Positions 6,558-55,357 of a stretch of DNA of 64,000 nt are shown here, in pieces. The translations under genes and the position numbers were made by a program. Source of the stretch: Bacteroidales bacterium. Lineage in GTDB: Bacteria; Bacteroidota; Bacteroidia; Bacteroidales; F082. Within the stretch, counting starts at the first letter, position 1. Each line of letters begins with the position of its first letter. The DNA lies in NCBI GenBank assembly GCA_017538795.1, contig JAFYIE010000075.1, positions 60,908-124,907 of the forward strand. Direction: 5' to 3'. A model generated the notes under the pieces. The model did no database searches. It was not told the origin of the DNA and saw only the letters and a list, made by a program, of their open reading frames with translations.

Positions 6558-7079
6558 ATGACAGATAAGCTTACTCCTCAACAACGCCATGTCTGCATGT
6601 CTCACATACATGGTAAAAACACTAAACCCGAGCTGAAGGTGCGCAAATGGCTTTGGTCTCATGGCTATCGCTATCGTCTTAATGTAAAAGGAGTTCCTGG
6701 CAAGCCAGACATCGTAATGCGTCGTTATCGCACTGCAATCTTTGTCAACGGTTGCTTCTGGCATGGTCATGAAGGATGTGAGAAGTTCAAGATGCCGAAA
6801 ACAAATGTCGAGTTTTGGGAAGCGAAAATCCGGAGAAATAGAGAACGAGACAGTCAAAACTATCAGATTTTAAAGGAAAACGGATGGCAGGTGCTTGTGC
6901 TTTGGGAGTGCGAACTCACAAAGAAGTCGTTTGAAGCAACTATGCAGAAAGTGGAAGTTCAACTCCATAGTTATTACCTTGCAACTATAAGCCATAATCA
7001 TAAGGTAAAAGATTACATTCGCATCGACGAAGACGACGTCCCAATGGCCGCTGAAGCAGAATACGACTACGGAGATTAA
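6558..7079 (+). CDS. vsr: Vsr-family (very short patch repair) DNA mismatch endonuclease
   Basis: A 173-residue Vsr protein. Family hallmarks are all present: RSxNMSRI-equivalent RHVCMSHIHGKNTKPE at the N-terminus, the catalytic aspartate in GKPDIV, the FVNGCFWHGH block that supplies catalytic histidines and zinc ligands, KTNVEFWEAKI with NRERD, and the terminal strand WQVLVLWECEL. Vsr enzymes nick 5' of T:G mismatches that arise when 5-methylcytosine deaminates, so they are usually encoded beside a Dcm-type methyltransferase. Here the methyltransferase is six genes upstream in the same operon. In MORC-type systems a Vsr-fold protein may instead act as the restriction nuclease. The last about 40 residues are acidic and extend beyond the E. 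coli protein. Its base composition is less AT-rich than the preceding genes. Confidence 0.93.
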   Translation: MTDKLTPQQRHVCMSHIHGKNTKPELKVRKWLWSHGYRYRLNVKGVPGKPDIVMRRYRTAIFVNGCFWHGHEGCEKFKMPKTNVEFWEAKIRRNRERDSQNYQILKENGWQVLVLWECELTKKSFEATMQKVEVQLHSYYLATISHNHKVKDYIRIDEDDVPMAAEAEYDYGD

Positions 7080-7084
7080 CTTTC

Positions 7085-7200
7085 ATGGCTTCGCCCCTCA
7101 TCGCTTCGCGGCGCGTGGGCCCGCGCCAGACGGCGGTTAGAGCTTCGGATGGCGCTTGATCTTTTGGTTACTTTTCCATCAAGGGAAAAGTGACAAAAAA
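7085..7200. repeat. GC-rich intergenic dispersed-repeat-like sequence with hairpin
   Basis: The gap after vsr is much more GC-rich than its surroundings. It contains the near-palindrome GCGCGTGGGCCCGCGC and a perfect 8-bp stem (7170-7177 with 7184-7191, ACTTTTCC/GGAAAAGT). No U-tract follows the stem on either strand, so it is not a standard terminator. It resembles multicopy intergenic elements of Bacteroidota genomes, but copy number cannot be judged from one window. It marks the right edge of the accessory operon. Confidence 0.4.
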
Positions 7201-7224
7201 ACCGCCTGTTAAGGCAAAAATTCT

Positions 7225-7232
7225 TATCTTTG
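7225..7232 (+). promoter_or_regulatory. -7 box TATCTTTG upstream of TSCPD gene
   Basis: An exact match to the Bacteroides-type TAnnTTTG box, 15 bp before the ATG at 7248. No clear -33 TTTG is visible at the usual spacing. Confidence 0.55.
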
Positions 7233-7247
7233 CAAAAAATATTTCTC

Positions 7248-7502
7248 ATGAAGCACCTCCAATACACCCCTCAAGGCACCTGCTCAATCCTTATCGACGT
7301 TACAGCCGATGATAACAACGTCATCCAAAATGTGGCGTTCCTCGGAGGCTGCAACGGAAACCTCCAGGGCATCTGCCGACTGGTGCAAGGACAGAAAATC
7401 GACGACGTAATCAACAAACTGGAAGGTATACGCTGCGGAAACAAGATTACTTCTTGCCCGGATCAGCTGTGCCAAGCACTTAAGGAACTGAAACGGAAAT
7501 AA
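7248..7502 (+). CDS. TSCPD-domain protein
   Basis: An 84-residue protein that is a single TSCPD domain, as found at the C-terminus of vitamin B12-dependent ribonucleotide reductases and as free-standing proteins (TIGR03905-like). The naming signature reads TSCPDQLCQAL near the end; other conserved features are FLGGCNGNLQGI and IRCGNKITSCPD with several cysteines. The function of stand-alone members is unknown. The ATG at 7248 was chosen because it follows the TATCTTTG box; an upstream in-frame TTG overlaps that box. It is followed after 21 bp by a thioesterase gene on the same strand. Confidence 0.85.
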   Translation: MKHLQYTPQGTCSILIDVTADDNNVIQNVAFLGGCNGNLQGICRLVQGQKIDDVINKLEGIRCGNKITSCPDQLCQALKELKRK

Positions 7503-7523
7503 ATAATTGAAAATTTTCAAACT

Positions 7524-7898
7524 ATGCTTCAAATCGGATTATCTCATACCTCAATAACCACTGTAAACAACAGCAACACCGCCCGCACTTACGGCTCGGG
7601 AGGTCTCGACGTGTTTGCAACACCGGCAATGATAGGCCTCATGGAAAACGCAGCAATGACTGCCGTCGAGAACGACCTGCCGGAAGGCTCGTCTACCGTG
7701 GGCGCGCATATCAGCACATCGCACATCAAGCCTTCAAAACTCGGCGCGACGATAAAAGCAACAGCCATCCTTGAGGAAATCGACGGCCGTAAACTCACTT
7801 TCAAAGTGACGGCATGCGACGACGAAGGTATCATCGGCGAAGGTACACATATCCGCTATATCGTTGACATCGGACGCTTTATGGCGAAACTAAAATGA
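7524..7898 (+). CDS. hotdog-fold thioesterase (FlK-like)
   Basis: A 124-residue single-domain hotdog protein similar to the fluoroacetyl-CoA thioesterase FlK family. Visible features are the VFATPAMIGLMENAAM helix that packs in the hotdog fold, ending with an acidic residue and helix cap, and the VGAHISTSHIKPSKLGA strand pair. Members hydrolyse small acyl-CoA thioesters in the cytoplasm; the native substrate is not known. The stop overlaps the start of the next gene by 4 bp (ATGA), so the two are translationally coupled. Confidence 0.85.
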   Translation: MLQIGLSHTSITTVNNSNTARTYGSGGLDVFATPAMIGLMENAAMTAVENDLPEGSSTVGAHISTSHIKPSKLGATIKATAILEEIDGRKLTFKVTACDDEGIIGEGTHIRYIVDIGRFMAKLK

Positions 7899-8587
7899 TA
7901 AAAACCACCATCATCGACGGCTCGGAAATCCGCTACGAGTTCAAACGCTCGCATCGGCGGAGCGTGGTCGCTAAAATACGTCGCGACGGCGTGATAGAGG
8001 TGAGAGCCCCGCTGCTGTACCGCGAAAGCAACATGCTCGTATTCCTGAACCAACATAAACGATGGATTTTTAATCATTTCGACAGACTGCAAAACGCCGG
8101 TAATCAACAGAAAAAGTATATCTCAGGCGAGATTCATTACTATCTTGGCAAACAATACACGCTTCAAGTGGTTGAAAGCGGTAAAAACTCAGTTTTTATC
8201 GAAGGTAATTCATTGATAATCAATTCTAAATATCCGGAAAACCCGAAATATTTAGAGGTTCAATTAAACAAATGGTATAGAAACCAAGCTAAAATCGTCT
8301 TCAGCGAACTTCTTCCGCCAATAATCGAGAAATTCCGCAAATACAACGTGGCACCTGCGAAAATCTCCATCCACGACATGCGGTCGAGGTGGGGTAGCTG
8401 CTCGCGAAAAGGCAATATCAGCCTTAACTTACAGCTTATAAAACTCAATGAAAACTGTATCCGCCAGGTGATGGTTCACGAGATGTGCCACCTCGTTTAC
8501 TTCAACCACCAAGCTGGTTTCCACGCACTGATGGATGAGATGATGCCGGATTGGAAACTATGGAAGAAGGATCTGAAGTTTCTGTAG
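7895..8587 (+). CDS. YgjP-like (DUF45/WLM-related) zinc metalloprotease
   Basis: A 230-residue protein of the YgjP/SprT-like family. The N-terminal half is a beta-rich domain (RRSVVAKIRRDGVIEVRAP). The C-terminal half holds the conserved RSRWGSCSRKGNISLN block and the gluzincin-like HEMCHLVYFNH motif, with two metal-binding histidines, the catalytic glutamate and a third histidine downstream. It is probably cytoplasmic. Its 3' end overlaps the 3' end of the convergent HAD gene by 30 bp. Confidence 0.88.
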   Translation: MIKTTIIDGSEIRYEFKRSHRRSVVAKIRRDGVIEVRAPLLYRESNMLVFLNQHKRWIFNHFDRLQNAGNQQKKYISGEIHYYLGKQYTLQVVESGKNSVFIEGNSLIINSKYPENPKYLEVQLNKWYRNQAKIVFSELLPPIIEKFRKYNVAPAKISIHDMRSRWGSCSRKGNISLNLQLIKLNENCIRQVMVHEMCHLVYFNHQAGFHALMDEMMPDWKLWKKDLKFL

Positions 8588-9169
8588 GTCTTCTTTCAAC
8601 TTTTTGGCGTTCTCGAATCGTATTGCATTGATTCCTACAGCTTTAGCACCTTCGACGTTTTTGATGTTATCGTCGATAAACAGACTTTCCTCAGCTTTGA
8701 GGCCGAAAGTGTTCAGCAATGTGTGGAAAATCTCAGGATTTGGCTTTAATTGCTTGACTTCTCCGGAAACAATAATCTTGTCGATGAGACTGAAGATACG
8801 ATACTTTTTCTGTACCGTAGGAAATGTCTCTGCCGACCAGTTTGTGAGACCATAAATAACAGGAAAACCATTGTCTTTCAACGACTTGATAAGATCATAC
8901 ATACCTGGTATTTCATCGCCCATAGTATCCATCCAGTTGGTCTGATAAAGCTTCAGCGGCTCTGCATACTTCGGAAACATGGCAGTGCGTTCCTTCACCG
9001 CCTGCTCAAAAGGCTTTCCGCCGTCCATCTCGGCATTCCATTCGGTATTGCACACATTCTCAATGAAATAGTTCGATTCCTCCATATCATTGAAATACTT
9101 ATCAAACAGATAGTGCGGATTCCAATCCACCAACACTCCACCAAAATCAAAGATTATATTCTTAATCAT
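8558..9169 (-). CDS. HAD superfamily (subfamily IA) phosphatase-like hydrolase
   Basis: A 203-residue HAD protein. Motif I is IIFDFGGVLVDWN, in which the second aspartate of DxD is replaced by glycine as in many YihX-like and haloacid-dehalogenase-like members. Motif II is GLTNWS, motif III is the lysine in QLKPNPEIF and motif IV is LFIDDNIKN. A helical cap domain lies at about residues 15-85. The substrate is unknown, probably a small phosphorylated metabolite. It begins 2 bp after miaA ends, so it is the last gene of a pcnB-like/miaA/HAD operon. It overlaps the convergent YgjP-like gene by 30 bp. Confidence 0.88.
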   Translation of the reverse strand: MIKNIIFDFGGVLVDWNPHYLFDKYFNDMEESNYFIENVCNTEWNAEMDGGKPFEQAVKERTAMFPKYAEPLKLYQTNWMDTMGDEIPGMYDLIKSLKDNGFPVIYGLTNWSAETFPTVQKKYRIFSLIDKIIVSGEVKQLKPNPEIFHTLLNTFGLKAEESLFIDDNIKNVEGAKAVGINAIRFENAKKLKEDLQKLQILLP

Positions 9170-9171
9170 AA

Positions 9172-10068
9172 TTATATCATCAAATTTTCAATAATTTCAT
9201 CAACCTCATCAATGGTAAACCACTGATAATCATTGTTTTTTCTTAACCATGTCATCTGCCGCTTCGCATATTGCCGCGTGTTGATCTTAATCTGCTCCAC
9301 AGCCTGTTCCAAAGTGCATTTTCCGTCGAGATAATCGAATAATTCTTTGTAACCTACTGTGTTTAAAGAGTTTAGATGCCGTTTCGGATACACAGACTTC
9401 ACTTCTTCAAGCAAACCTTGAGCCATCATCATGTCGACGCGCAGGTTAATGCGTTCAATGAGTTTGTCTCTGTCCCAAAGTATCGCCAGCTTCACTATGT
9501 CAAAATCGCGTTTCGCCACATTTCTCTGTCTGAAAGTGGAGTAGGGCTTGCCGGTTTGATAATAGACCTCCAACGCCCGCTGCAAACGACGCGGATTCTG
9601 CTTGTCGACAATCTGGAAATAGTCGTTGTCAACCTTCTCAACTTCCTTCTGCAAAGTCTCCAAACCGCCCTCCTCAAGCATCCTCGCAACCTTGGTTCTT
9701 ATCTCATCCGAAATATCCGGCATCTCATCCAATCCGTTGCACACAGCATCGATAAAAAGACCCGAACCACCGGTCATGATGGCTACATTTTTAGTCTTAA
9801 AGTATTCCTTTAGATAATTTAATACATCTCTATCATAATCAGCGACATCATATTTATCTTCAATGCTAAGATTATGAACGAAATGATGCTTCACTTGGGC
9901 CAATTCCTCTGCTGTAGGAGCGGCCGTTCCGATGGACAATTCCTTGTAAAATTGACGGCTGTCGGCGGATATGATTTCAGCATCAAAAGCCTTCGCGAGC
10001 TTTATCGCCGTCGCCGTTTTTCCCGACGCGGTAGGGCCAGCCAATACTATGAGATGCTTGTTTTCCAA
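9172..10068 (-). CDS. miaA: tRNA dimethylallyltransferase
   Basis: A 298-residue MiaA, which transfers a dimethylallyl group from DMAPP to N6 of A37 in tRNAs that read UNN codons. The P-loop is AGPTASGKT at about residues 10-18. The substrate-binding motif DSRQFYKE, the TGGSGLFIDAV segment and QNPRRLQRALEVY are all present. Its length is normal for the family. It sits 7 bp downstream of the tRNA nucleotidyltransferase gene, a common pairing of tRNA maturation functions. The start is the ATG at 10068. Confidence 0.97.
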   Translation of the reverse strand: MENKHLIVLAGPTASGKTATAIKLAKAFDAEIISADSRQFYKELSIGTAAPTAEELAQVKHHFVHNLSIEDKYDVADYDRDVLNYLKEYFKTKNVAIMTGGSGLFIDAVCNGLDEMPDISDEIRTKVARMLEEGGLETLQKEVEKVDNDYFQIVDKQNPRRLQRALEVYYQTGKPYSTFRQRNVAKRDFDIVKLAILWDRDKLIERINLRVDMMMAQGLLEEVKSVYPKRHLNSLNTVGYKELFDYLDGKCTLEQAVEQIKINTRQYAKRQMTWLRKNNDYQWFTIDEVDEIIENLMI

Positions 10069-33919: not shown

Positions 33920-33964
33920 ATATATTTTTTTATATAAAAAGAAAAAAAAACTAATTTTAATGAT

Positions 33965-34040
33965 GATTTTTAATGCCCTTTGCAGAAATGCGACCTACCA
34001 CAGGGTACTGTTGAGCATTTCAAAAAGGGCATTAAAAATC
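33965..34040. repeat. 17-bp perfect inverted repeat with extended stem
   Basis: GATTTTTAATGCCCTTT at 33965-33981 pairs perfectly with 34024-34040; after a short mismatch, AAATG/CATTT adds five pairs around a 25-nt loop. A second small hairpin, CTTTTTG/CAAAAAG, abuts at 34040-34056. It lies between the end of the symporter gene and the kamE promoter. It may be a terminator or the remnant of a small mobile element. Confidence 0.7.
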
Positions 34041-45171: not shown

Positions 45172-45318
45172 ATAATATCAAGACCATCTTATTTAGCTTT
45201 TATTCTTTGATATTATAAAAGGTTTATTACGCTATTACACTGCGAGGCGTTAATGAAAGGATTTGAATACTTGTATTATTATGAAGAGGAAAAGAAAAAC
45301 ATATTTTCCCCAGTAGTT

Positions 45319-47841
45319 TTATGACTTGTCTTTACTCAATAACGCTTCAATAGGCACGGTGCTATTCATCAATCCAATTCTGGTATCCGATTCGTGGCGG
45401 TTAACGCCAGTATAGGTCAGAGAGGCATCTTCGTAACGACGGAACTTAAGGATAGCGTCGTTCATCTGGGCACGATTAAATACTCCGACACGCAGAAGCA
45501 GGTCGAAATCATCAATAGTTAGGCCTGTAACACGCTCAAACAAACTTGGTTCCAGTTTACGAATCACATCTTCAAGGCTTTCTTCGCGATAATCGGTAAG
45601 ATACATGAAGATGGGTATTCGGGTTGCGAACTTCATCAGTTTTTCCTGCACCTCACGACGCTTGGAGCGATATTCTTTCTCTTCAGCGGTGAGTTCTTTC
45701 TTTTTCTTATGGTCGTTATTATCGCCAGCTTCGCGTTTCAGCTTTTTGATTTTTTCAGCACGATTGACAATATTCTCGATAATATCGCTACCCAAGGCGC
45801 GGAAACCTTCAATTTTCATGATAGTGGCCAGGGCTTCAGGGTTGTCAAGCACTCGTTGCAAGGTAGCATTATCCACATTGACCAGTTGCGCGCTGTTCCA
45901 ACGACGCGCCAACAATGTACCACTGGTGCCGTTATCAACAAAGTCAAGGATTTCGGTAGCATCAACACGCTTCATTGAACTGCCATCAAACTGAAGTATG
46001 GGCAGGAAGTTGATGAATTCGTCAACTTTATCAGTGATACGGCGATTACTATCCACATCCAACTGGTTAGCGTAAGTAACCACTTCCCGCAAAGCACGGT
46101 TGGGGGCAAAATCAAACACATAACAAGTCGGTTTGAGGATTGTTTTCTTTGTAGGGTCATCCTTATCGGTAGCCGTCCATGGACTTTGCACACGAAAAGC
46201 AGTCTGGAAGTAAGTTTCAGGACTGGAGCAGTTACGCAGCATAAGCAGTCCTCCTAATGGACGCAACGTTACTCCAGTAGTCAACTTGCCACATGTCAGC
46301 GTGATGGTGCGTGTTTTCAATGGATTATCGCCCATAGCCTCGCGAACAGGACCGAGAGCTTCCACGCCAATACCAGCCTTGGTGCCGCTGCAGTTGATAA
46401 TGGTGTAGTTCTGATAAAAACCGTTGGCCGGACGTTGCAGTAGCGCTTCCATGGCGTCACACGAAGCCACGTTGGGCAGGAACCACATCGTGTGGGCGCA
46501 GAGGTCTAGCAGGCGCGTGTCCTCAAAAGGCAAAGCCGGACGTACATTGAGCGGTGAACTGCCGTCACCAAAGATTGGCGCTTTGCCACGGATAATGTCA
46601 AGCCATTTCTGAACAGCCTTCTCGTGGATAAACTTCTTCCCTTCCGCCCTGAAAAACTCGTTAAGGTCGAAGCCGTCCATGTCCCACTGCTCTATCATAG
46701 CTCCAAGGTCTTGAGGCATCTGGTAAGTCATCATCACCATGGTAGGCATCTCCAGATAAGGGCTACCGACGGACTCTTTCCGTGCCTGTTCATCCTGATA
46801 AGTCCAGTTAAATATTTGGTTTTCAATGAATTCGCCCGTAGCAAGCGCTCGGAATGGTGTACCGCTGAGGTAAAGATAATGCTTACCTGTGATTGGCACA
46901 TCGCTGTCGTCCCAAGCACGTCCGCTTTCCACATCAATACCACTTTCGCTCATCACCTCATCCTCCTCCGTCTGTCGCTTTTTGGCTTCTACATCACCAA
47001 GGTCGAGAAGGCTTTTTGCGTTGTCGTTCCAAGCACCGAAATGATATTCATCAAGTACAATCAAATCCCAATTGATACTGTGAACCCATTCGTTCTTGGG
47101 TTTGATGTTTCCGTAACGGTCTCTGCCGAGGTAATCTTGAAACGAGCCAAATACCACCAACGGCTTTGGCGAGGACAGCGATGGAAATTCTTCATCCATT
47201 CGACTACTATAGTAACGCCACCCCTCAAAGTCGCGGTGCCGTAATAAGTCGTCGCGCCACGAATCCTCTACGGCAGGTTTGAATGTAAGCACCAACACTC
47301 GTTTCGCTCCCATGCGTTTGGCAAGCTGGTAAGTAGCGAAGGTCTTGCCGAAACGCATTTTAGCATTCCAAAGGTAGTGGCTGGGGCGGTTTGGCTCCTC
47401 TATGTCCATTTTGGCAAAATAATCCGCAGTATCCCCTACCGCCTGCTTCTGCTCATCCCGCATCTCGTAGTCGAGATCACGCATTGTTTCGACATTTGTG
47501 TCACGGTGACGCACTGCCACATATGCCGCCTTTGCCTCGCTCAGCGTACAACGGCACCACTCACCAATAAGCTTCTTACCCATACGACGCAGGTAATCGT
47601 GAAGATCGTGGTCGCTAAAGCTTTCGCCACTTCCGTCGGCATAGAAAGCATTGTTGTACCAAAGCAAATGGTAAGTCTTGTGCGGTTCAGTGATTGGATG
47701 CTGTTCATCAATGCGTTCGTTAACATTTTGACGGCTCGTCTGCCCTATCTTTATCCATCCCGGAAACGAAATGTCGTCGTACATGTATATCTGCGGCACT
47801 GCACGCTGACTGTTGGGAAGTATTTGGTCTATAGTTTGCAT
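45319..47841 (-). CDS. GIY-YIG (T5orf172-like) nuclease-SF2 helicase restriction protein
   Basis: An 840-residue protein, third gene of a restriction-modification operon. Residues about 15-115 resemble the T5orf172/GIY-YIG nuclease fold (QIYMYDDISFPGWIKIGQT, then R and a later glutamate). The rest is a superfamily 2 motor: motif I MRFGKTFATYQLA near residue 171, motif II VLDEYHFGAW near 265, SGTPFRAL, and a C-terminal lobe with TCGKLTTGVTL and QTAFRVQSPW. A helical region at 690-740 is lysine-rich. The enzyme probably translocates on DNA and cuts unmodified sites. It starts 19 bp after the methyltransferase gene. Confidence 0.88.
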   Translation of the reverse strand: MQTIDQILPNSQRAVPQIYMYDDISFPGWIKIGQTSRQNVNERIDEQHPITEPHKTYHLLWYNNAFYADGSGESFSDHDLHDYLRRMGKKLIGEWCRCTLSEAKAAYVAVRHRDTNVETMRDLDYEMRDEQKQAVGDTADYFAKMDIEEPNRPSHYLWNAKMRFGKTFATYQLAKRMGAKRVLVLTFKPAVEDSWRDDLLRHRDFEGWRYYSSRMDEEFPSLSSPKPLVVFGSFQDYLGRDRYGNIKPKNEWVHSINWDLIVLDEYHFGAWNDNAKSLLDLGDVEAKKRQTEEDEVMSESGIDVESGRAWDDSDVPITGKHYLYLSGTPFRALATGEFIENQIFNWTYQDEQARKESVGSPYLEMPTMVMMTYQMPQDLGAMIEQWDMDGFDLNEFFRAEGKKFIHEKAVQKWLDIIRGKAPIFGDGSSPLNVRPALPFEDTRLLDLCAHTMWFLPNVASCDAMEALLQRPANGFYQNYTIINCSGTKAGIGVEALGPVREAMGDNPLKTRTITLTCGKLTTGVTLRPLGGLLMLRNCSSPETYFQTAFRVQSPWTATDKDDPTKKTILKPTCYVFDFAPNRALREVVTYANQLDVDSNRRITDKVDEFINFLPILQFDGSSMKRVDATEILDFVDNGTSGTLLARRWNSAQLVNVDNATLQRVLDNPEALATIMKIEGFRALGSDIIENIVNRAEKIKKLKREAGDNNDHKKKKELTAEEKEYRSKRREVQEKLMKFATRIPIFMYLTDYREESLEDVIRKLEPSLFERVTGLTIDDFDLLLRVGVFNRAQMNDAILKFRRYEDASLTYTGVNRHESDTRIGLMNSTVPIEALLSKDKS

Positions 47842-47860
47842 AATCTAAGGTCTTTTGTAG

Positions 47861-49360
47861 TTACTCCATCGGTCGTATCATGCTTTCAATAAAGGCGATT
47901 TCATCTTTGTCTAAGTTGTATTTCTTGTATAGCATTTCATCTGTCCAGGGGTGAGAAAAGTCCTGTATAGGAACAAACTTGTAAACCTCTTTGGTTGTGG
48001 ATTGTGTGACCTTTCTTAACATTATTAGAAACCGCATAAATCGAGTCTTTATGTAGCTAATAACATTTTCACATTCTTCTTTTGAAATAAATGGACCTAT
48101 ATAGATGTATGTTTCTGAACTAACAGTATTTGGCTCACCCACAAAAGGTACTCCTACAATTGGATGAGGGAAACTATCACTACCACTTCCGGCTCTTGCA
48201 ATATAAACTTTATATGATTTCACGTCTTGTCTGTTTTTCGTGATAAGTTTTTCACTAACAAAAGACTCTCCTTGATTTTCATACAATTTCAAATATCCAT
48301 TATGGTATTCTTTCTCACCATGAAAATTTGTACTCAAACCAAACGGTTGACGAGAACTAACCCTATCTGCTAATGTTGGTTCTTTGAAAGAAACTACTTT
48401 ATGCAAAATGCTTATTGCCTCATTGTATCGAATAAACACATCACTCCCTTTTTCTAGCAAAGGTCTTGAAACAGGCTCTCCAACTTTTCCATTTTGATGA
48501 GTGTAAATCATACAATCTCCTCGATTATCCCTATTCCATAGAAAATAGCACACACCACCTTTAATTTGTACTCCAGGAAAGCATTCATACGCTTGAGGAT
48601 AGTCGTGTATAATACGCAATCTATTGTCGTGCAACATTTCATCTCTAAATTCATCAAGCCCTTTACCACCAGCATACCAGCGCGCAGGAACTATCATAAT
48701 AAGGTATCTCGGTTTAATTTTTTTTGCCTGCGTGATAAACCTATCATATATTGGCATTGCGCTAATACCAAACCCTCCATCACTTAATTGATACGGCGGA
48801 TTACCTATAATTACATCGAATTGCATATCTTTATGAAAAATTTCTTTGATACTTTTGTGAATAAATGGATAAGCGTATGTCTCGCGGGAGTCTGTGCGTA
48901 GATACTCATTTTGGCTGGCGCCGCAGTATTCGCAACGACCTTGTGCGTTCCATGTATGGTTGCATCGGACATATCGCAAATTGCCTTGCACATCATGGAA
49001 TGCTGTAGTAACGCTGTATTCGCCATTGGCCTGCTTGGTGCAATAGAGTGTGCGACGGCTCATTTCGGCAGTGAGGTCGGTACAAGCGACGCCGAAAACC
49101 TGTTTGGCCATAATATGGTCGATGCGTTGTTGCAAGTCGGGTATTTGCTCTTCCAGCCCTGCCAACAGCCGTTTGGCAATCTCACGTAGGAAGACACCGC
49201 TTTTGCTACAAGGGTCAAGAAAGCGCGTCTTGGGGCTGCCAAACAGTTCCTGTGGCAATAAATCAAGCATCCGGTTGGCCAACTCGGGCGAAGTAAACAC
49301 CTCGTCGCTGCTCAGATTTGCCAAGCAATTGAGAATATCAGGGCTATACGTGTTCTTCAT
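47861..49360 (-). CDS. adenine-N6 DNA methyltransferase (Eco57I-like), catalytic subunit
   Basis: A 499-residue methyltransferase. Motif I-like RFLDPCSKSGVFLREIAKRL lies near residue 48. A zinc-ribbon-like C-x-H-(x8)-C-x-x-C segment (CNHTWNAQGRCEYCG) lies near 150, and the catalytic motif IV VIGNPPYQLSDGG near 205. The second half is the target-recognition part. The GxG of motif I is altered (CSKSG), so AdoMet binding may rely on the partner gene. The start at 49360 was chosen because it begins the conserved MKNTYSPDILNCLANLS and overlaps the upstream gene by 17 bp; the longer frame is antisense-like filler. Confidence 0.9.
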   Translation of the reverse strand: MKNTYSPDILNCLANLSSDEVFTSPELANRMLDLLPQELFGSPKTRFLDPCSKSGVFLREIAKRLLAGLEEQIPDLQQRIDHIMAKQVFGVACTDLTAEMSRRTLYCTKQANGEYSVTTAFHDVQGNLRYVRCNHTWNAQGRCEYCGASQNEYLRTDSRETYAYPFIHKSIKEIFHKDMQFDVIIGNPPYQLSDGGFGISAMPIYDRFITQAKKIKPRYLIMIVPARWYAGGKGLDEFRDEMLHDNRLRIIHDYPQAYECFPGVQIKGGVCYFLWNRDNRGDCMIYTHQNGKVGEPVSRPLLEKGSDVFIRYNEAISILHKVVSFKEPTLADRVSSRQPFGLSTNFHGEKEYHNGYLKLYENQGESFVSEKLITKNRQDVKSYKVYIARAGSGSDSFPHPIVGVPFVGEPNTVSSETYIYIGPFISKEECENVISYIKTRFMRFLIMLRKVTQSTTKEVYKFVPIQDFSHPWTDEMLYKKYNLDKDEIAFIESMIRPME

Positions 49361-49994
49361 ATCGGTAAATTTGTGTGTAATGTAACGGTGGATAAGTACG
49401 CACAGGCTCGTCGAAGCTCTGCACTTCGCCTTGCTCGTCGAAGAGGCTGTATTGGTGGCTTTGTGTGACAAGGAAATCAAACTGGAAGTCACGCCGCGAG
49501 AACTGCATGCTGCCTGCAATGGGTGTCCATTCGCAGAAAGTGATGGGCTTATCCTCGGCTGTACGATAGGTCAGCGCATCACCGCAGACGATGTTCTTCT
49601 GAAGCATATATCGAAGGCTTTCTTCATAACCGTTTGTACGACCTCTGTTGCCCATCTGTCCAAGCACTTCGGCAAACAACCGTTCACGACAAGCCTCGGC
49701 GTTGTCGGGCAGGATGTCAATGCCATAGCAGGAGCCTACGGCAATCAGGCTCTTGAACTCCAATTCCGTTTGGGATTTGATGTCTTGCAAAAGGGAGAGT
49801 TTTCGGTGCAGAATCTCGATAAGGAAATTGCCATCACCACAGGCAGGCTCGAGGAAGCGGCTGTCGAGACGGAACGACTCGTCACGCACCAAGTCGAGCA
49901 TGGCGTTCACCTCGCGCGGATTGGTGAACACCTCGCCATGGTCAGCCACTCGTTGGCGGCTTTTGATTTGTTTTGTGTTTTCGTTACTGGGCAT
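49344..49994 (-). CDS. methyltransferase-like subunit with AdoMet motif, no NPPY
   Basis: A 216-residue protein with an intact AdoMet-binding motif I, FLEPACGDGNFLIEILHRKL, near residue 47, and GIDILPDNAEACRERLF as motif II-III region. A catalytic NPPY motif is absent: the expected place reads FDFLVTQSHQY. The opening RVADHGEVFTNPREVNAMLDLV parallels the opening of the next gene (DEVFTSPELANRMLDLLP), so the two look like diverged copies. It is the first gene of the operon and its start codon lies inside a strong hairpin. A heteromeric methyltransferase with split AdoMet-binding and catalytic duties is a reasonable inference. Confidence 0.85.
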   Translation of the reverse strand: MPSNENTKQIKSRQRVADHGEVFTNPREVNAMLDLVRDESFRLDSRFLEPACGDGNFLIEILHRKLSLLQDIKSQTELEFKSLIAVGSCYGIDILPDNAEACRERLFAEVLGQMGNRGRTNGYEESLRYMLQKNIVCGDALTYRTAEDKPITFCEWTPIAGSMQFSRRDFQFDFLVTQSHQYSLFDEQGEVQSFDEPVRTYPPLHYTQIYRYEEHV

Positions 49995-50131
49995 AAAAAA
50001 TCGTGGAACTTTTCTTACGACTTCTTAGGTGTTCCACGACCTGCCCAGTAAGTAAGTAAAGCCCACGACTAATCGTAGACGTCTACCGCTTTACTAAACT
50101 GGGGCTTGATTTGTGGAACTTCAAGAAGTCA
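49984..50131 (-). promoter_or_regulatory. nested palindromic leader of the restriction-modification operon
   Basis: The leader holds several stems. TTACTGGGCA (49984-49993) pairs with TGCCCAGTAA (50042-50051). Inside it TCGTGGAAC (50001-50009) pairs with GTTCCACGA (50031-50039), and on the minus strand that stem is followed by six Ts and the ATG. Upstream, CCCAGT and AGTAAAGC (50044-50062) pair with GCTTTACT and ACTGGG (50088-50103) around the 12-bp palindrome GTAGACGTCTAC (50075-50086). An inverted copy of GACTTCTT-GTTCCAC lies at 50113-50130. The outer stem would hide the start codon and the inner one looks like an attenuator. Confidence 0.7.
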
Positions 50132-50224
50132 GTTAGAGCGAAAACGCTTTTATAATATGTTAGTTATCTTCTATTCTTTTGTTTAATTGTCTATTGTTTG
50201 TTTATATGTATGTTTTATATTTTG

Positions 50225-50232
50225 CAAATTTA
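50225..50232 (-). promoter_or_regulatory. -7 box TAAATTTG for the restriction-modification operon
   Basis: An exact TAnnTTTG match on the minus strand, directly after the AbiH stop. It predicts a leader of about 220 nt, long for this genome, containing the nested palindromes. Confidence 0.6.
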
Positions 50233-50240
50233 CAAAAAAA

Positions 50241-51230
50241 CTAAAATAAATTCGAAATCGTATCTAAATTTCGTTCATATGCCGCACGGCTATTGTCATT
50301 CAATCGTTTAACGAAAACATCTAACAAACTTTTGTCTTTTTCGTCTTCAGTACATATTATCTGAAAATGTGATTGAGCATATAATCTTTGAATACTAATA
50401 TTCATTTCTCTTAGCTTACCTATTATACTCAATCTTGATTTATCGTCTTTGGTGAAAATTGTAATATTCTTTTTGTTTTCTTCATGGATAGAATCTCCAT
50501 CCGATAAACTTTTAAAGAAACGGTCAAAATAACTATAATCAATATTACCAAAAGACAACCCAAATATCACAATCTCTCGTGCATTAGTCAATGCATTATA
50601 AATATCATGTGATCGATAATAATGACTGGACGATTTGTGAAACAGTTCATATCCCGGACGCAATTTTGAGTCATCAACACCTAATATGATAGACCTGTCA
50701 TCAACCTTACCATGCATGTGAGTGTATTTTATATCATGATAGATTCCCAGCGACCGAGCAATTTTATTTAAACTAGTGTAATTAAACGAGTATATTTGTT
50801 CAAAATAATCATTATCTATTACTGATTTCAGAACCCTACCAGCGACACTATCTTTTCTTGTGACTTTATCTTCAACGCTAATAATATAATCACACAAAGA
50901 ATTCTGTAATTGTGTAAAATATTCTATATTCTTTGCAATGAAAGAATCACTCTCTTTCCCATTATTTTTATTATCAGCCTGGGAATATAACAACAACTCA
51001 TTTTCAAGGTCGAACCATGTGTTAAGATTTTTCTTTCTGTCAAGATAATGCTCTAATAATATAGGACTTGTCGAAGTGCCTAATCTTATAACACTGCTAT
51101 TTGTTCTCACATATGAAGTCACAACATGTGAAGCCTGTGGCCAAAAAGTTGATTTTGCAAAGTCAGAATACTTTGTGGGTAATTCTAAATCCAAATCAAA
51201 CCCATTACCTATTATAAAAACATTCTCCAT
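50241..51230 (-). CDS. abiH: AbiH-family phage abortive infection protein
   Basis: A 329-residue AbiH protein. The nucleotide-binding-like opening VFIIGNGFDLDLELPTKYSDF at the N-terminus (GNGFD is the hallmark), FSFNYTSL near residue 150, THMHGKVDDRSIILGVDD, and the late motif IVIFGLSFGNIDYSYF are all family signatures. AbiH was first found on a lactococcal plasmid as a single-gene phage-exclusion system; its biochemical action is unknown. Here it sits between the ATPase-TOPRIM-HEPN cassette and the restriction-modification operon on the same strand. Confidence 0.9.
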   Translation of the reverse strand: MENVFIIGNGFDLDLELPTKYSDFAKSTFWPQASHVVTSYVRTNSSVIRLGTSTSPILLEHYLDRKKNLNTWFDLENELLLYSQADNKNNGKESDSFIAKNIEYFTQLQNSLCDYIISVEDKVTRKDSVAGRVLKSVIDNDYFEQIYSFNYTSLNKIARSLGIYHDIKYTHMHGKVDDRSIILGVDDSKLRPGYELFHKSSSHYYRSHDIYNALTNAREIVIFGLSFGNIDYSYFDRFFKSLSDGDSIHEENKKNITIFTKDDKSRLSIIGKLREMNISIQRLYAQSHFQIICTEDEKDKSLLDVFVKRLNDNSRAAYERNLDTISNLF

Positions 51231-51248
51231 ACAAAAATACTATTATTC

Positions 51249-51369
51249 TTATTTCATCACCTCATCCGCCAAATACCTATCTCCCAATGTATAAAGTATC
51301 GTATTTGGATCTCGCATCAATTGATTCTTGCTCAAATTGTTTCTTATTATCAATATCCAACCAATTCAC
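51249..51369 (-). pseudogene. frameshifted small gene remnant upstream of AbiH
   Basis: Minus-strand translation from a GTG at 51369 gives VNWLDIDNKKQFEQESID and then ARSKYDTL before a stop. Skipping one base continues as TLGDRYLADEVMK and a stop at 51249. The two pieces read like one natural protein C-terminus broken by a single-base change. A promoter-like box precedes it. The parent gene is not recognised. Confidence 0.35.
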
Positions 51370-51373
51370 ATCG

Positions 51374-51381
51374 CAAAAATA
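51374..51381 (-). promoter_or_regulatory. -7 box TATTTTTG upstream of the AbiH region
   Basis: An exact TAnnTTTG match on the minus strand. It would give AbiH a leader of about 140 nt that includes the frameshifted remnant. Confidence 0.45.
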
Positions 51382-51479
51382 ATAAATTTACACATATAAC
51401 AAAATCTAAATAACACTATGTTTAACAGCTTGAAATTAGAGTTGAAAAGCAAACAATCGTATTAGCTATCTTTTTAACT

Positions 51480-52130
51480 TCATTCATCTATGATATCTTT
51501 AAGATTGGTCAATACTAAAGTATAAAACACATCAAATCCTGATATAACATGCGGCTCTTTATACTCTCCATTTTCATCAAATAAAGATTCGTTAACTATG
51601 TCTGGATTAGTTGGTATTTCAACCATTAATATCCAATTTTTACTTGCTTCTTTGGCAATAGTGATAAGGTCTTTAAGCAATTGTTTATCTTCCATCGGAA
51701 CTGCTTTTTCCAAACAAGAAGCTATCTCATGTCCATATATATTACGTTTTTCGTAACACTTCGATAATGTTTGAAAATCATCTTTTTCAATCAACCCCAA
51801 ATTAACCATCCATCTAAATAATGATAATTTAGGATTCCAATCTCCACCCTTATTTCTTTCTAAATGCAGTACTTCATTTATATATTTTTTCTCCGCATCT
51901 TTGTCTGGAGCAAACGTCATCTTTCCATCTTTCGTAATATGCTTAACAAAACTACATATTAGTTTCTTTCGTTCTTCATCCCAAGAAAAACTATTGGCAT
52001 AAAAGGAGCGAACTTGATCCATCCAATAAGAAACAAAATTCTCAAATACCATTAAGAAAAGGCTATAAAAAATCAGTTCTTTTCTGATCTTTTCACGGTC
52101 GGTTACAATATCGAAGAAATCAGAATCCAT
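51480..52130 (-). CDS. HEPN-like protein of AAA-TOPRIM cassette (putative RNase effector)
   Basis: A 216-residue, largely helical protein with no signal or membrane segment. It carries R129-N130-I-Y-G-H134, a match to the Rx4H motif (with the typical polar residue after Arg) of HEPN ribonucleases, in the helix EKRNIYGHEIASCL. HEPN proteins cut tRNA or mRNA in many abortive-infection and toxin systems. It is the last gene of a three-gene operon, starting 4 bp after the TOPRIM gene. No named family was recognised; the HEPN call rests on the motif and the helical setting. An alternative is a structural subunit. Confidence 0.7.
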   Translation of the reverse strand: MDSDFFDIVTDREKIRKELIFYSLFLMVFENFVSYWMDQVRSFYANSFSWDEERKKLICSFVKHITKDGKMTFAPDKDAEKKYINEVLHLERNKGGDWNPKLSLFRWMVNLGLIEKDDFQTLSKCYEKRNIYGHEIASCLEKAVPMEDKQLLKDLITIAKEASKNWILMVEIPTNPDIVNESLFDENGEYKEPHVISGFDVFYTLVLTNLKDIIDE

Positions 52131-52134
52131 AAGC

Positions 52135-52764
52135 CTATTTTTTCTTATCCAAATTTTTTACTCCCAACAATTTTTCAAACTCCTTCAACTCCTTTTTCCT
52201 CGCATTACGGATTTTGGCAATGTCGAGTTTATCTAAATATGGCTTTATTTTTTCTCTACCCTTATTCCGGTCGTATACAATATTTTTCTTTCTAAACAAT
52301 CCTTTTACTTTTTCTTGCCCATCATGACCTTTGGGTAGGGTATTCAACGGCAAATTCAGAGCTTTCAACAAACCATTCAAATCGTCTAACAACCAATCTT
52401 CTATGCTTGTTTTTGCTTCAATCCGACAAAAATGTGAAACATCGTAGTAGTCTTTTAAATTCTTTTCAACCTTATCCCATTCTGGTCTCAACTTTATCCC
52501 TTTTTCCAAAACATCCGTATCGTATTCACAGACAACAGTATCAAACGTAACAGGAGATTTTGAGGTTAATTTTATCCTCTTTAACCCCTGTTTCATTTTC
52601 TTTTCTTCCGGAAATCCATGTGTATTTATTATCTTTACCTGTTTTTTAAAGTCTTTACTGCGATAATACTGGATTAATCCATCAATTATGATTTCATCAG
52701 CATCTCCTTCTACAAAAACGACTTTAATATTGTCAGATCTTTCTATTGTTTTCTTTTTTGTCAT
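52135..52764 (-). CDS. TOPRIM-like nuclease (RloB/DUF4276-like) of defence cassette
   Basis: A 209-residue protein with a TOPRIM signature: the first-strand glutamate in VVFVEGDADE (E19) and the DxD pair in VVCEYDTD (D82, D84). A later segment, IEAKTSIEDWLLDDL, resembles the I-E-x-W-L-L-D block of RloB- and DUF4276-type proteins. In OLD-, PARIS- and AbiL-like systems a TOPRIM protein is the nuclease controlled by an AAA/ABC ATPase, as encoded next door. The ATG at 52764 is chosen because a perfect AGGAGG lies 8 nt upstream; the in-frame GTG at 52773 is too close to it. The C-terminus is lysine-rich. Confidence 0.8.
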   Translation of the reverse strand: MTKKKTIERSDNIKVVFVEGDADEIIIDGLIQYYRSKDFKKQVKIINTHGFPEEKKMKQGLKRIKLTSKSPVTFDTVVCEYDTDVLEKGIKLRPEWDKVEKNLKDYYDVSHFCRIEAKTSIEDWLLDDLNGLLKALNLPLNTLPKGHDGQEKVKGLFRKKNIVYDRNKGREKIKPYLDKLDIAKIRNARKKELKEFEKLLGVKNLDKKK

Positions 52765-52772
52765 ACCATCCA

Positions 52773-52778
52773 CCTCCT
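52773..52778 (-). promoter_or_regulatory. strong Shine-Dalgarno AGGAGG before the TOPRIM gene
   Basis: Read on the minus strand, AGGAGG ends 8 nt before the ATG at 52764. Other genes in this window lack such a site, as is usual in Bacteroidota, so it stands out and decides the start. Confidence 0.7.
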
Positions 52779-52782
52779 ATTA

Positions 52783-54075
52783 TTAATTATTTGCGAAAAA
52801 CTCTGATATCAAATCTTGGTCGCACTCCATATCCAACATTAAATCAAACAAGTATTCGCCCAATGACATTTCTCCTGCAGCTGCAATTTTCAATACATGA
52901 GACACTTTGGTCGTCTTTAATGTATGGAAATCAACAAAACCTTTTTCTGAAGGTAAGCCTATATATAATTGAGGAGCCGTCAAATATTTGACCAAATTAG
53001 GCGAATGACTAGTAAACAATAATTTGGTGTCACCTAAAAAATCTTTAATTGAAGAGAGCAAACTTTGCAACAGCCTTGGATGTATTGAGTTTTCCAATTC
53101 TTCAATAAGAAGCAATTGAGCACCATCTTTCTGAGCCATTACAATCTTAGTCAACAAATTCAGCAGTTTCATACTTCCAGTTGAAAGATATTGGAACCGT
53201 GTCTGTTGATTATTGTTCCTTTCTTTTACAATGACATCGTATTGGTCTGGTAATTCAAAAGGAGCATCTTTATCAACTTTCAAGTTTAATTTATTGATAA
53301 CAATTGGATTAATCGTTTCGATTGTAGGAATAAGATTCGTGATTGATGATATCAAATACTCAAATGTGTCTTTGTCCTTTTGCTTTAATTCATATAAATA
53401 TTGAGCGAGGTCATATCCTAATAATAATTTTTGTTTACCATCCCTTACTGTCACTCGTGGTGCAAAAAGTTCTTCAGGATCCGACAGGGTATCAATACCC
53501 CTTACTTCTATATTCTTAATTGTTTCAATATAATTATGGTAAAACAAATCATCATAATTATATAATTTATTTAGAACTAATTCATTAGAATCAATATATA
53601 ACTCCTTGTCACATCTGCCAGATGAGCTGGGAGTATATTTTGCATTATTGCTATCAGTTCTTTGTATCAATTTAGTAAACTTTGCTTTTGTTCCATTTTT
53701 AGTTTTAATTTTCAGATACTCCTCAATAATCTGTCCTTCAGTTTCTACTCCTTTTTCATTCCTCCTATTTCTTTTCCAATCAAAACTAAACCCATAAATA
53801 AAATCTGTATTATCATCAATCTTCCCCTCTTCCACAAATACATATGGCTTTCCCGCTATTCCCTTGTTTATGGAAATACACGACTTATCGCCCATCATAT
53901 TAATCCTATCTCCCGGTATGGTTTTAATGAATTGAAAAGCAAATGCAATAGCTGCCATTGCATTGCTTTTACCATAGTTGTTTGGAGCTAATAATGAAGT
54001 AATATCTTTAAGGTCTATTGAAAAAGAATCAATATTCCTAAATCCTTTAATTGAAATTTTGTTTAATGAAACCAT
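52783..54075 (-). CDS. AAA/ABC-type ATPase (AAA15/21-like) of defence cassette
   Basis: A 430-residue ATPase of the RecF/OLD-like class. Walker A is APNNYGKSN at 30-38 after the typical opening LNKISIKGFRNID. The signature-like YLSTGSMKLLN, Walker B LLLIEELENSIHP and the switch LFTSHSPNL follow in the last third. The central region is probably a coiled or helical insertion. Such ATPases sense phage infection or DNA ends and release or activate a TOPRIM nuclease partner. The start at 54075 follows from the promoter at 54105-54134, which lies inside the longer open frame. It is followed after 18 bp by the TOPRIM gene. Confidence 0.88.
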   Translation of the reverse strand: MVSLNKISIKGFRNIDSFSIDLKDITSLLAPNNYGKSNAMAAIAFAFQFIKTIPGDRINMMGDKSCISINKGIAGKPYVFVEEGKIDDNTDFIYGFSFDWKRNRRNEKGVETEGQIIEEYLKIKTKNGTKAKFTKLIQRTDSNNAKYTPSSSGRCDKELYIDSNELVLNKLYNYDDLFYHNYIETIKNIEVRGIDTLSDPEELFAPRVTVRDGKQKLLLGYDLAQYLYELKQKDKDTFEYLISSITNLIPTIETINPIVINKLNLKVDKDAPFELPDQYDVIVKERNNNQQTRFQYLSTGSMKLLNLLTKIVMAQKDGAQLLLIEELENSIHPRLLQSLLSSIKDFLGDTKLLFTSHSPNLVKYLTAPQLYIGLPSEKGFVDFHTLKTTKVSHVLKIAAAGEMSLGEYLFDLMLDMECDQDLISEFFANN

Positions 54076-54104
54076 AATTCCCAAATGTTTAATGAATGAT
54101 GCCG

Positions 54105-54134
54105 CAAAGATATAAAATATTTTTATATATGCAA
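54105..54134 (-). promoter_or_regulatory. promoter of the AAA-TOPRIM-HEPN operon (TTG-N19-TATCTTTG)
   Basis: A full consensus promoter on the minus strand: -33 TTG at 54132-54134, a 19-nt spacer and -7 TATCTTTG at 54105-54112, about 30 bp before the ATPase ATG. Confidence 0.75.
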
Positions 54135-54135
54135 T

Positions 54136-54342
54136 AAAAAATTGCATTTATTTTAAAATATTTTTTGTTTTTATTTTTTCAAAACCTAATTAGATACTCT
54201 ATTCTAATTATTAAAAATGCCCTTTTAAATTTAATATTTAATCACAATTCTCTGACAATCAACATTTTAACACACAAATAAAGATTAAACAGATTTAAAT
54301 CTTCTTAAAATATATCTTCAATACAAATGCCATTAAAAAATC
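54136..54342. other. AT-rich non-coding stretch
   Basis: About 200 bp of very AT-rich sequence between the divergent operon promoter and the rpe promoter. No open frame, hairpin with U-tract or recognisable repeat is seen; an isolated AATGCCCTTTT recalls the arm of the inverted repeat at 33965. Confidence 0.5.
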
Positions 54343-54373
54343 TTGCACCTTATTAAAATAAGGTGTATTTTTG
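54343..54373 (+). promoter_or_regulatory. rpe promoter with palindromic operator in the spacer
   Basis: A full promoter: TTG at 54343-54345, a 20-nt spacer and TATTTTTG at 54366-54373. The spacer holds ACCTTATT-AA-AATAAGGT (54347-54364), two perfect 8-bp arms, a likely binding site for a dimeric regulator. Confidence 0.65.
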
Positions 54374-54394
54374 CAGTTACAAAAAATTGACAAA

Positions 54395-54490
54395 ATGAAC
54401 AAACTTATCGCTCCATCGTTGCTTTCAGCTGACTTCCTGCATCTGTCGAAGGATATTAACATCGAAAGTTATGGACATCCACTGGTCTGA
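54395..54490 (+). pseudogene. rpe: truncated 5' fragment of ribulose-phosphate 3-epimerase
   Basis: Translation from the ATG gives MNKLIAPSLLSADFLHLSKD, the conserved N-terminus of Rpe (catalytic-pocket serine in LLSADF). It then departs into unrelated residues and stops after 31 codons. The normal protein has about 215 residues. The promoter is intact, so the gene was cut near 54458 by a recombination event at the edge of the defence island. The missing part is not in this window. Confidence 0.85.
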
Positions 54491-54515
54491 TAAACGTTGG
54501 TATTCCTTTGTCTTA

Positions 54516-55346
54516 TTATACCTCAATCATAGCCGAAGGGTTAAAACCATTCATCAGATGTTCTCTGTGAGATATGTAGCCCAATTGATTGGATAATATG
54601 AGAGTGTCACCTATTTGCGCTTTGATGTTGCGATGCGAATGTCCATAAATCCAGTAATCAATGCGGTTATTGGAAATAAACGTGGCCAACTCAACCGTGA
54701 ATGCACCATTGATGGTGCTGTTCTGAAATTCTGCTGCCGTGCATAATTGTGTGGGGACATGATGCGTGAGGACGATAATTTTTTTAGCGTCACTCTCGGA
54801 AATGGCTTGTTGGATGAATGTGAGGCAACGCTCATGTTCCTTGTTGAATTCATCTGCTGTTAGTCGATGTCCATCATACATGATGCGATAGAAGTCGCTG
54901 ACATTCCGTTCCGTCAGGAATGCATCGTACGGCTCTATCTTCGACCATAATGTTGATACAATTATATCTATGCCGTCAAGATTAACCACGCTGTTGTAGT
55001 ATGCATGAATATTGTGACGAATCTGCTTGCGGAAACCGTTAGGCATAGCATGAAGATCGTAATAACCGTAAAAGTCGTGATTGCCCAGGCACACTATAAC
55101 CTGGTTGTAGTGCTTGCTTGCCCAATCCCAGAATTTATATGCTGAATACGTATCGTTTTTCGAGTCTGGTAAATCAAGATATGCCGTATCGCCAGCGATA
55201 AGCAAAATATCCCCCGTAACCTCCAGAGGATGTTCTTCGATCCATTGACGATTTTGAGGGAACTCCAAATGCAGGTCGCTGACATACTGAATGCGTATGC
55301 CGCTAGTCGTACCTGTAGCACTTTGTGACATTTGGTCAGAATGCAT
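54516..55346 (-). CDS. calcineurin-like metallophosphoesterase
   Basis: A 276-residue metallophosphoesterase. All metal-binding motifs are present in order: DLHLE near residue 24, GDT near 52, GNHD near 92, the histidine in LTHHVPT near 197 and GHSH near 238. The two-metal centre hydrolyses phosphoesters. It resembles stand-alone phosphoesterases of mobile or accessory regions; the substrate is unknown. The first about 15 residues are serine/threonine-rich and a second ATG lies six codons in. It starts 11 bp after mpl stops and converges on the rpe remnant. Confidence 0.88.
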   Translation of the reverse strand: MHSDQMSQSATGTTSGIRIQYVSDLHLEFPQNRQWIEEHPLEVTGDILLIAGDTAYLDLPDSKNDTYSAYKFWDWASKHYNQVIVCLGNHDFYGYYDLHAMPNGFRKQIRHNIHAYYNSVVNLDGIDIIVSTLWSKIEPYDAFLTERNVSDFYRIMYDGHRLTADEFNKEHERCLTFIQQAISESDAKKIIVLTHHVPTQLCTAAEFQNSTINGAFTVELATFISNNRIDYWIYGHSHRNIKAQIGDTLILSNQLGYISHREHLMNGFNPSAMIEV

Positions 55347-55357
55347 GTGTTCCCGTT

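Follow-up and report, generated by a model that had tools for sequence, protein, structure and literature searches.

Several described defense systems pair an ATPase with a TOPRIM protein. In class 1 and class 2 OLD and in Gabija the two are fused in one protein, class 2 having a helicase gene as well (PMC10568477). RloB, which is related to OLD_TOPRIM, has been seen in type I restriction–modification (R-M) operons, and toxicity-neutralization assays on two TOPRIM pairs showed that AAA proteins neutralize toxins of the TOPRIM_OLD/RloB type (PMC10440598). In PARIS, AriA is reported to free AriB once the anti-restriction protein Ocr is present, and AriB cuts tRNA (PMC12409363). Links between HEPN proteins and R-M are known from at least 16 clades; PrrC is held by its R-M enzyme, and R-M-linked HEPN ribonucleases (RNases) have been proposed as restrained, second-line suicide enzymes (PMC3710099). 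PARIS-like OLD-ABC/TOPRIM dyads and HEPN genes are also described as back-ups adjoining BREX-type systems (PMC12839542). Here we analyze a stretch of 64,000 nucleotides (nt) from contig JAFYIE010000075.1 of a Bacteroidales bacterium (hereafter, the window), in which three consecutive minus-strand genes encode a predicted OLD-type ATPase (gene A), a TOPRIM protein (gene T) and a HEPN-like protein (gene H).

A first-pass annotation, made from the letters alone, had read A, T and H as one dedicated three-gene system, a candidate for an undescribed defense system. We favor a different reading, to which we assign a probability of roughly 0.6: the operon is a stack of two independently moving, swappable back-up (abortive) modules beside restriction, and not one dedicated three-gene machine. 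The first module would be A and T, a sensor–effector pair of an OLD-type ATPase and an RloB-like TOPRIM nuclease. The second would be H, a predicted HEPN RNase whose family is unnamed in every library that we searched.

The ATPase–TOPRIM pair and the HEPN-like gene in other genomes

The three genes do not stay together. Among the four close H loci, A–T is present in two, the window and locus L008, and absent from L006 and L007. L008, from a genome of another family, holds the full trio in the same order, with A, T and H respectively 74%, 68% and 47% identical to the window proteins. An AbiL pair (AbiLi, E = 6.2e-81; AbiLii, 2.5e-16) stands in the place of A–T before H in L007, and a helicase gene and a DUF4391 gene lie ahead of H in L006. 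At the four distant H loci, no A–T pair was seen adjoining H in the lists of open reading frames (ORFs) or in the plasmid annotation, which is incomplete. A–T loci also number four, two with H (the window and L008) and two without (L014 and L022); tblastn with H was negative, and the L022 contig ends ~750 nt past T. H relatives lacking A–T, the result that the first pass had named as refuting its reading, were thus observed, at 79% (L006) and 47% (L007) identity. In L022, an IMG/VR contig, a membrane-protein-like ORF (4341–5093) touches the stop codon of T and is perhaps another third-gene partner.

Nucleotide comparisons locate the breaks near gene boundaries. By blastn, the window and L006 have only window positions 51479–52132 in common, which is H to within a few bases (77.8%), and the H operon of L006 carries a type III R-M system and no A–T. 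With L008 the window shares 52022–54075 (73.7%), which covers A, T and roughly 109 bp at the start of H. L008 and L007, in turn, are 90% identical over H and the 5′ end of the methyltransferase gene mod and also share res and segments from the 3′ portion of mod; between these two loci, A–T yields to the AbiL pair ~9 bp ahead of the H start. In protein sequence, the window H resembles the H of L006, which has no A–T (79%), more than that of L008, which has it (47%).

In three of the four close loci, the other side of H overlaps or directly adjoins a type III mod gene. A match to MTase_III (9.1e-230) identifies the mod of L006 as type III, and the mod genes of L007 and L008 are related to it. 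The H and mod frames overlap in both L007 and L008; in L006, the choice of mod start codon decides whether they overlap or H ends a few bases before mod. Beyond mod, L007 and L008 have a type III res gene, and a partial res stands at the edge of L006. The genome that holds the window has a single match to the type III mod, on another contig (44% identity over residues 70–458 of 665); the window H either lost a type III mod neighbor or never had one. L007 also contains a further HEPN-type gene (4977–5816; PADLOC AbiJ, 4.6e-14; Abi_C, PF14355, 7.5e-25), located between mod and res in the operon of H. Taken together, A–T–H is a recurrent combination and not an obligate unit, recurrent because the full trio is found again in one further genome (L008).

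We also surveyed how widely the genes are spread. Within 393 genomes of the order, five gave H-like matches (E up to 0.01), counting the window genome and G033, and three gave T matches (E up to 0.001), counting the window genome. The G033 match (L010, E = 0.0068) is a 373-amino-acid (aa) frame judged to lie within an unrelated gene, and was set aside as chance. Across 395 genomes of the phylum, the H profile (E up to 0.001) matched three, the window genome, G619 and G578, and the T profile (E up to 1e-6) matched the window genome only. The G578 match (L021, E = 2.2e-4; a 400-aa frame) was likewise judged to fall within an unrelated gene by chance. H occurs in 1/100 genomes of its own family, the window genome itself, and in 2/31 genomes of the family of G081, both already among the known members. 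Scanning genome contigs for H gave one relative, L006. IMG/VR scans gave none for H and, for T, none by single sequence and one by alignment. Plasmid scans returned no relatives of the window H or T; two plasmid H relatives were reached through distant family members. A phage scan with the H of L020, the sole protein tried there, found no match. On one of the plasmids (L047, Salinivibrio), a nucleotidyltransferase-domain gene with a small partner (7028–9576) sits ~1 kb upstream of the H relative, and transposase and integrase genes lie downstream of it.

The three predicted proteins

Profile matches identify A as an OLD-type ABC/AAA ATPase (PF13304, AAA_21, 2.4e-18; PF13175, AAA_15, 1.3e-17). 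Its best PADLOC model is AbiLi (5.1e-23, 79.6 bits), followed by AriA (1.1e-21) and HEC-01A (1.5e-21), both scoring at most 5 bits from AbiLi. Searched against the PDB, the A profile matched 15 sequences, led by PtuA and retron ATPases (best 5.7e-9), with AriA later (8.3e-5). The motifs that the first pass had picked out and numbered, Walker A and Walker B in A, VEGD and DTD in T and RNIYGH in H, hold up throughout the respective families (Table 1), a conservation that marks them as more than chance. EELENS and TSHSP in A are, like Walker A, invariant in all four A proteins.

T is a stand-alone TOPRIM protein whose remote kinship, by hhalign, is with RloB. An alignment of the four T proteins against 20 RloB proteins gave a probability of 86% and a pairwise E of 4.9e-6, and spans VEGD, D-x-D and a later E-x-W-L motif; the RloB profile comprised 19 of 26 over-cut-off rows (those with loci, leaving out L045 because of an inner stop) together with one L007 protein. 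The best single model for T is OLD-like TOPRIM (PF20469, 2.9e-5, over its cut-off), and the match to PADLOC HEC-01B is weak (1.9e-5, 22.5 bits). At E up to 1, the window T matched neither the RloB (PF13707) nor the AbiLii models; its relatives match them weakly (L014, RloB 9.4e-4 and AbiLii 4.3e-4; L022, AbiLii 5.2e-5). At the same threshold, no AriB-named or DUF4435 model was among its matches, DUF4435 being presumably the label for the AriB-type TOPRIM partner. T and H are both without a family in NCBIfam (E up to 1) and both unmatched in PHROGs (E up to 0.1). Five PDB chains matched by the T profile (best 0.021, an adenylate kinase) were taken as chance.

The assignment of H as a HEPN-like RNase is supported by family profiles and by its motif, more weakly than the assignments of A and T. 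The first pass had named ATPase, TOPRIM and HEPN domains; the first two are borne out in the window proteins as OLD-type and RloB-like, and the third through family profiles only. The H family has eight members. Identity to the window H is 79% in L006, 47% in L007 and L008, and 18–25% in L009, L020, L047 and L048. Run on a small test set that included 1000 shuffles, a profile built from the four close members recovered L020 (7.5e-17) and L009 (5.8e-8), the best shuffle reaching 0.0013. The published HEPN rule is Rx4-6H with N, D or H following the R, plus an upstream acidic residue (PMC3710099). With R129, N130 and H134 invariant, and an upstream acidic residue, E30, invariant in all eight members, H fits this rule; the window H is without the full Ex3[KR] form.

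Using a consensus of the eight members, which flatters E-values, we obtained a match to Cas_Csm6_HEPN (8.3e-6; 26.2 bits against a cut-off of 23.4) and weaker ones to HEPN_LA2681 (0.0017), DUF6548 (0.0035) and HepT-like (0.031). Ten controls (one reversed, six shuffled, three block-shuffled) matched no HEPN model at E up to 0.1, and their best chance match, to another family, reached 0.0019, so that the Csm6 match alone rises above chance. The H profile matched two PDB chains, one of them NAP1-related (0.0041) and the other at 1.1, both judged chance. H belongs to what is apparently an unnamed HEPN family, which in its sequence neighborhoods shows unusually clear cassette behavior. The models of the libraries tried recognize A and T only generically (AAA, OLD-like TOPRIM), and H not at all, so that annotation relying on them would miss the set.

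The operon and its defense island

As first described, A, T and H are three intact, tightly spaced frames on the minus strand, 18 nt (A–T) and 4 nt (T–H) apart. The sequence GGAGGTGG precedes T within the 18-nt gap. Of two candidate ATG codons for A, at 54075 and, upstream, at 54147, we chose the former because relatives begin at that ATG. The first pass had also reported one consensus promoter. A site of the form TTG-N19-TATCTTTG is indeed present ahead of A, and it resembles what we take to be the Bacteroidota promoter consensus. The window contains five matches of this type, and 50 mononucleotide shuffles average 2.5; a promoter is thus plausible by position, and the match is not significant alone. 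We therefore regard the site as a plausible promoter of A–T–H, with position counting more than rarity.

Table 1. Features of the A–T–H operon and of the surrounding island (window coordinates)
Feature	Position	Strand	Basis or note
Gene A, OLD-type ABC/AAA ATPase (predicted), 430 aa	52783–54075	minus	
Gene T, stand-alone TOPRIM protein, RloB-like (predicted), 209 aa	52135–52764	minus	
Gene H, HEPN-like ribonuclease (predicted), 216 aa	51480–52130	minus	
Walker A APNNYGKSN, A residues 30–38 (K36)	53962–53988	minus	invariant in 4/4 A proteins
Walker B LLLIEELE, A residues 321–328	53092–53115	minus	EELE invariant in 4/4 A proteins
TOPRIM VEGD, T residues 18–21 (E19)	52702–52713	minus	invariant in 4/4 T proteins
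TOPRIM DTD, T residues 82–84 (D82/D84)	52513–52521	minus	invariant in 4/4 T proteins
RNIYGH (Rx4H), H residues 129–134	51729–51746	minus	R129, N130, H134 invariant in 8/8 H proteins
Promoter-like site, Bacteroidota type, TTG-N19-TATCTTTG	54134–54105	minus	motif match
Inserted defense island, ~10.2 kb	45175–55356	.	flanking genes adjacent in G891, G899, G922
Eco57I-type R-M: helicase-like subunit and two methyltransferase ORFs	45319–49994	minus	profile matches
AbiH-family gene, 249 nt downstream of H	50241–51230	minus	PF14253, 7.5e-26
Metallophosphoesterase, island edge	54516–55346	minus	PF00149, 6.1e-17

The operon lies in an inserted island. An amidohydrolase gene and an Mpl-like gene, which flank ~10.2 kb in the window, are separated by 22, 83 and 29 nt in G891, G899 and G922, an empty site in three of the five nearest relatives by amidohydrolase (at least 85% identity) among the 30 genomes searched, the window genome included. 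G871 and G908 have other genes at this site, at contig ends and defense-like at least in G908; in more distant members of the genus, the amidohydrolase and the Mpl-like gene are not neighbors among the matches listed. The gap between the two genes is a hotspot. The defense setting proposed by the first pass holds, with the AbiH gene and the R-M operon that it had placed next to the trio both recognized by profile (Table 1).

G908 shares with the window the helicase end of the R-M genes (97.7% over 435 bp; 100/100 residues) as well as the metallophosphoesterase (97.9% over 389 bp), but there it is an AbiLi/AbiLii pair (1.4e-63 and 1.7e-10), not A–T, that adjoins the metallophosphoesterase. The G908 contig ends inside AbiLii, so the position of H is outside its reach. 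A, T, H and AbiH have a G+C content of 31–33%, as against 41–52% for the R-M genes (window, 42.6%), and this difference suggests that the low-G+C block arrived separately from R-M.

Three smaller observations concern the island. The G908 metallophosphoesterase (L064, 1959–2419) is without a ~370-bp internal stretch of the window copy (54516–55357). By eye, the gap between H and AbiH (51231–51479) seems to contain short coding remnants, as if a gene had been lost. The empty site of G899 (L059, 300–376) carries 78 bp that are 88% identical to window positions 33962–34039, perhaps a short dispersed repeat.

Proposed mechanism, alternatives and described systems

How might two such modules act beside restriction? 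The sequences show gene content, motifs, homology, exchange near gene edges and the insertion of the island. In the scheme that we infer by analogy, every biochemical step, the trigger and the restraining partner included, A would keep T inactive until a phage cue, probably a sign of blocked restriction, makes A free T. Freed T would then cut host nucleic acid, either tRNA, like AriB, or DNA. H would be a further suicide RNase, restrained by a neighboring defense protein and freed once that protein is overwhelmed. Both modules would thereby halt phage growth after restriction, the first layer, has failed. A more specific proposal, which we consider doubtful, makes H a plug-in suicide RNase for restriction operons with fixed gene boundaries: its start would abut upstream alarm genes and its 3′ end overlap mod, sensors (A–T, AbiL or helicase–DUF4391) would be exchangeable ahead of it while the coupling to restriction stays, and in the window genome this shared effector would have been carried into a restriction island new to it.

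Several results weigh against the reading of two swappable modules. The trio recurs in a second genome (L008), and a published network has a HEPN node that pairs with the AAA domain (PMC10440598); together these make functional coupling possible. The close H loci are few (n = 4), and the window H is not adjoining a type III mod. As for the RNase assignment, the window H by itself matches no HEPN model and no named family above chance. Only one of the eight members, L009, matches HEPN models (HEPN_MAE_28990 at 4.5e-4 and a second match at 0.001, both below cut-off). No match came from hhalign when the H family was aligned with two HEPN proteins of the MAE_28990 type and with an Abi_C protein. 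The consensus matches to HEPN models other than Csm6 (0.0017 and weaker) do not surpass the best chance match of the controls (0.0019), and non-HEPN families score alike.

The alternative that survives best concerns the target of T. Instead of host tRNA, T may attack DNA directly in the manner of class 1 OLD nucleases and GajA, leaving H alone as the RNA-cutting, abortive part; we consider this a serious possibility, if short of even odds. OLD-like TOPRIM is the model that T matches best, TsOLD cuts DNA (PMC10568477), and GajA nicks DNA through a domain of that same model (PMC10952713). T is a separate protein, however, as in PARIS, where the separate TOPRIM protein cuts tRNA (PMC12409363).

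It is unlikely, in our view, that A, T and H form one dedicated two-effector system in which the ATPase senses phage and controls both a TOPRIM nuclease and a HEPN RNase. The tight spacing of the operon, the repetition of the A–T–H order in a genome of another family and the published pairing of AAA domains with TOPRIM as well as with the HEPN node (PMC10440598) speak for such a system. The distribution of the genes speaks against it: H is found without A–T in L006 and L007, A–T without H in L014 and L022, a breakpoint falls ~9 bp ahead of the H start, and the closest relative of the window H comes from a locus without A–T.

We think it quite improbable that H is a non-catalytic adaptor or an antitoxin-like subunit of its neighbors and not an RNase. 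Its small, separate gene touches or overlaps a neighbor in the four close loci, and some HEPN domains are described as probably binding RNA without cutting it (PMC3710099), but the R, N and H of the motif and E30 are invariant in 8/8 members, down to 18–25% identity. That A, T and H are decaying leftovers is very improbable, since, for all the seeming remnants between H and AbiH and the shortened metallophosphoesterase of G908, the three frames are open, their motifs intact and a promoter-like site present.

Under the reading that we prefer, two swappable modules beside restriction, the locus offers a natural experiment in how layered defense is assembled. The same H follows three different gene sets, the breaks falling close to gene edges, and closely related genomes carry two different ATPase–TOPRIM pairs in one island. 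Should H work with any of these sets, defense sensors and effectors would be interchangeable parts. If an R-M enzyme leashes H, type III systems would gain a PrrC-like suicide back-up.

The pairing has precedents: OLD-ABC/TOPRIM dyads and back-up HEPN genes beside restriction-type systems are in print (PMC3710099, PMC12839542 and PMC10440598). For the A–T–H trio itself, or for the exchange of H, we found no description in the literature within reach, from which most subscription journals and supplements fall outside, and this is weak evidence of absence. HEC-01, a PADLOC candidate system, has two components that A and T match (1.5e-21 and 1.9e-5, T weakly); its name appeared in none of the papers listed, and PMC9252829 makes no mention of HEC.

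Among the described systems, fused OLD/Gabija is rejected as an assignment for A–T, A and T being separate genes. AbiL/RloAB has a two-gene ATPase–TOPRIM layout like that of A–T, its RloB aligns with T over VEGD, D-x-D and E-x-W-L, and AbiL pairs occupy the place of A–T in L007 and the matching island end in G908. It differs in that the AbiLi model scores 79.6 bits on A but 270 on the L007 counterpart and 213 on that of G908, and we rejected membership because the window T matches neither the RloB nor the AbiLii model. PARIS has an OLD-type ATPase and a TOPRIM protein as separate genes, like A–T, and A matches AriA both among PADLOC models (1.1e-21) and, as a profile, in the PDB (8.3e-5); AriA is not the best model for A, however, and membership was rejected because T has no AriB-type match. 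In the NetFlax AAA/TOPRIM_OLD pairs, in which an AAA protein neutralizes a separate toxin (PMC10440598), the likeness to A–T is one of layout. For H, the nearest comparison is with R-M-linked HEPN proteins of the PrrC/PrrI type, whose genes lie in or beside R-M and carry Rx4H with N following R (PMC3710099). H differs in being small, in having no fused ATPase, in matching no named HEPN family on its own and in that the R-M genes of L006–L008 are type III. The A–T–H operon, set beside these systems, consists of known kinds of parts in a new combination.

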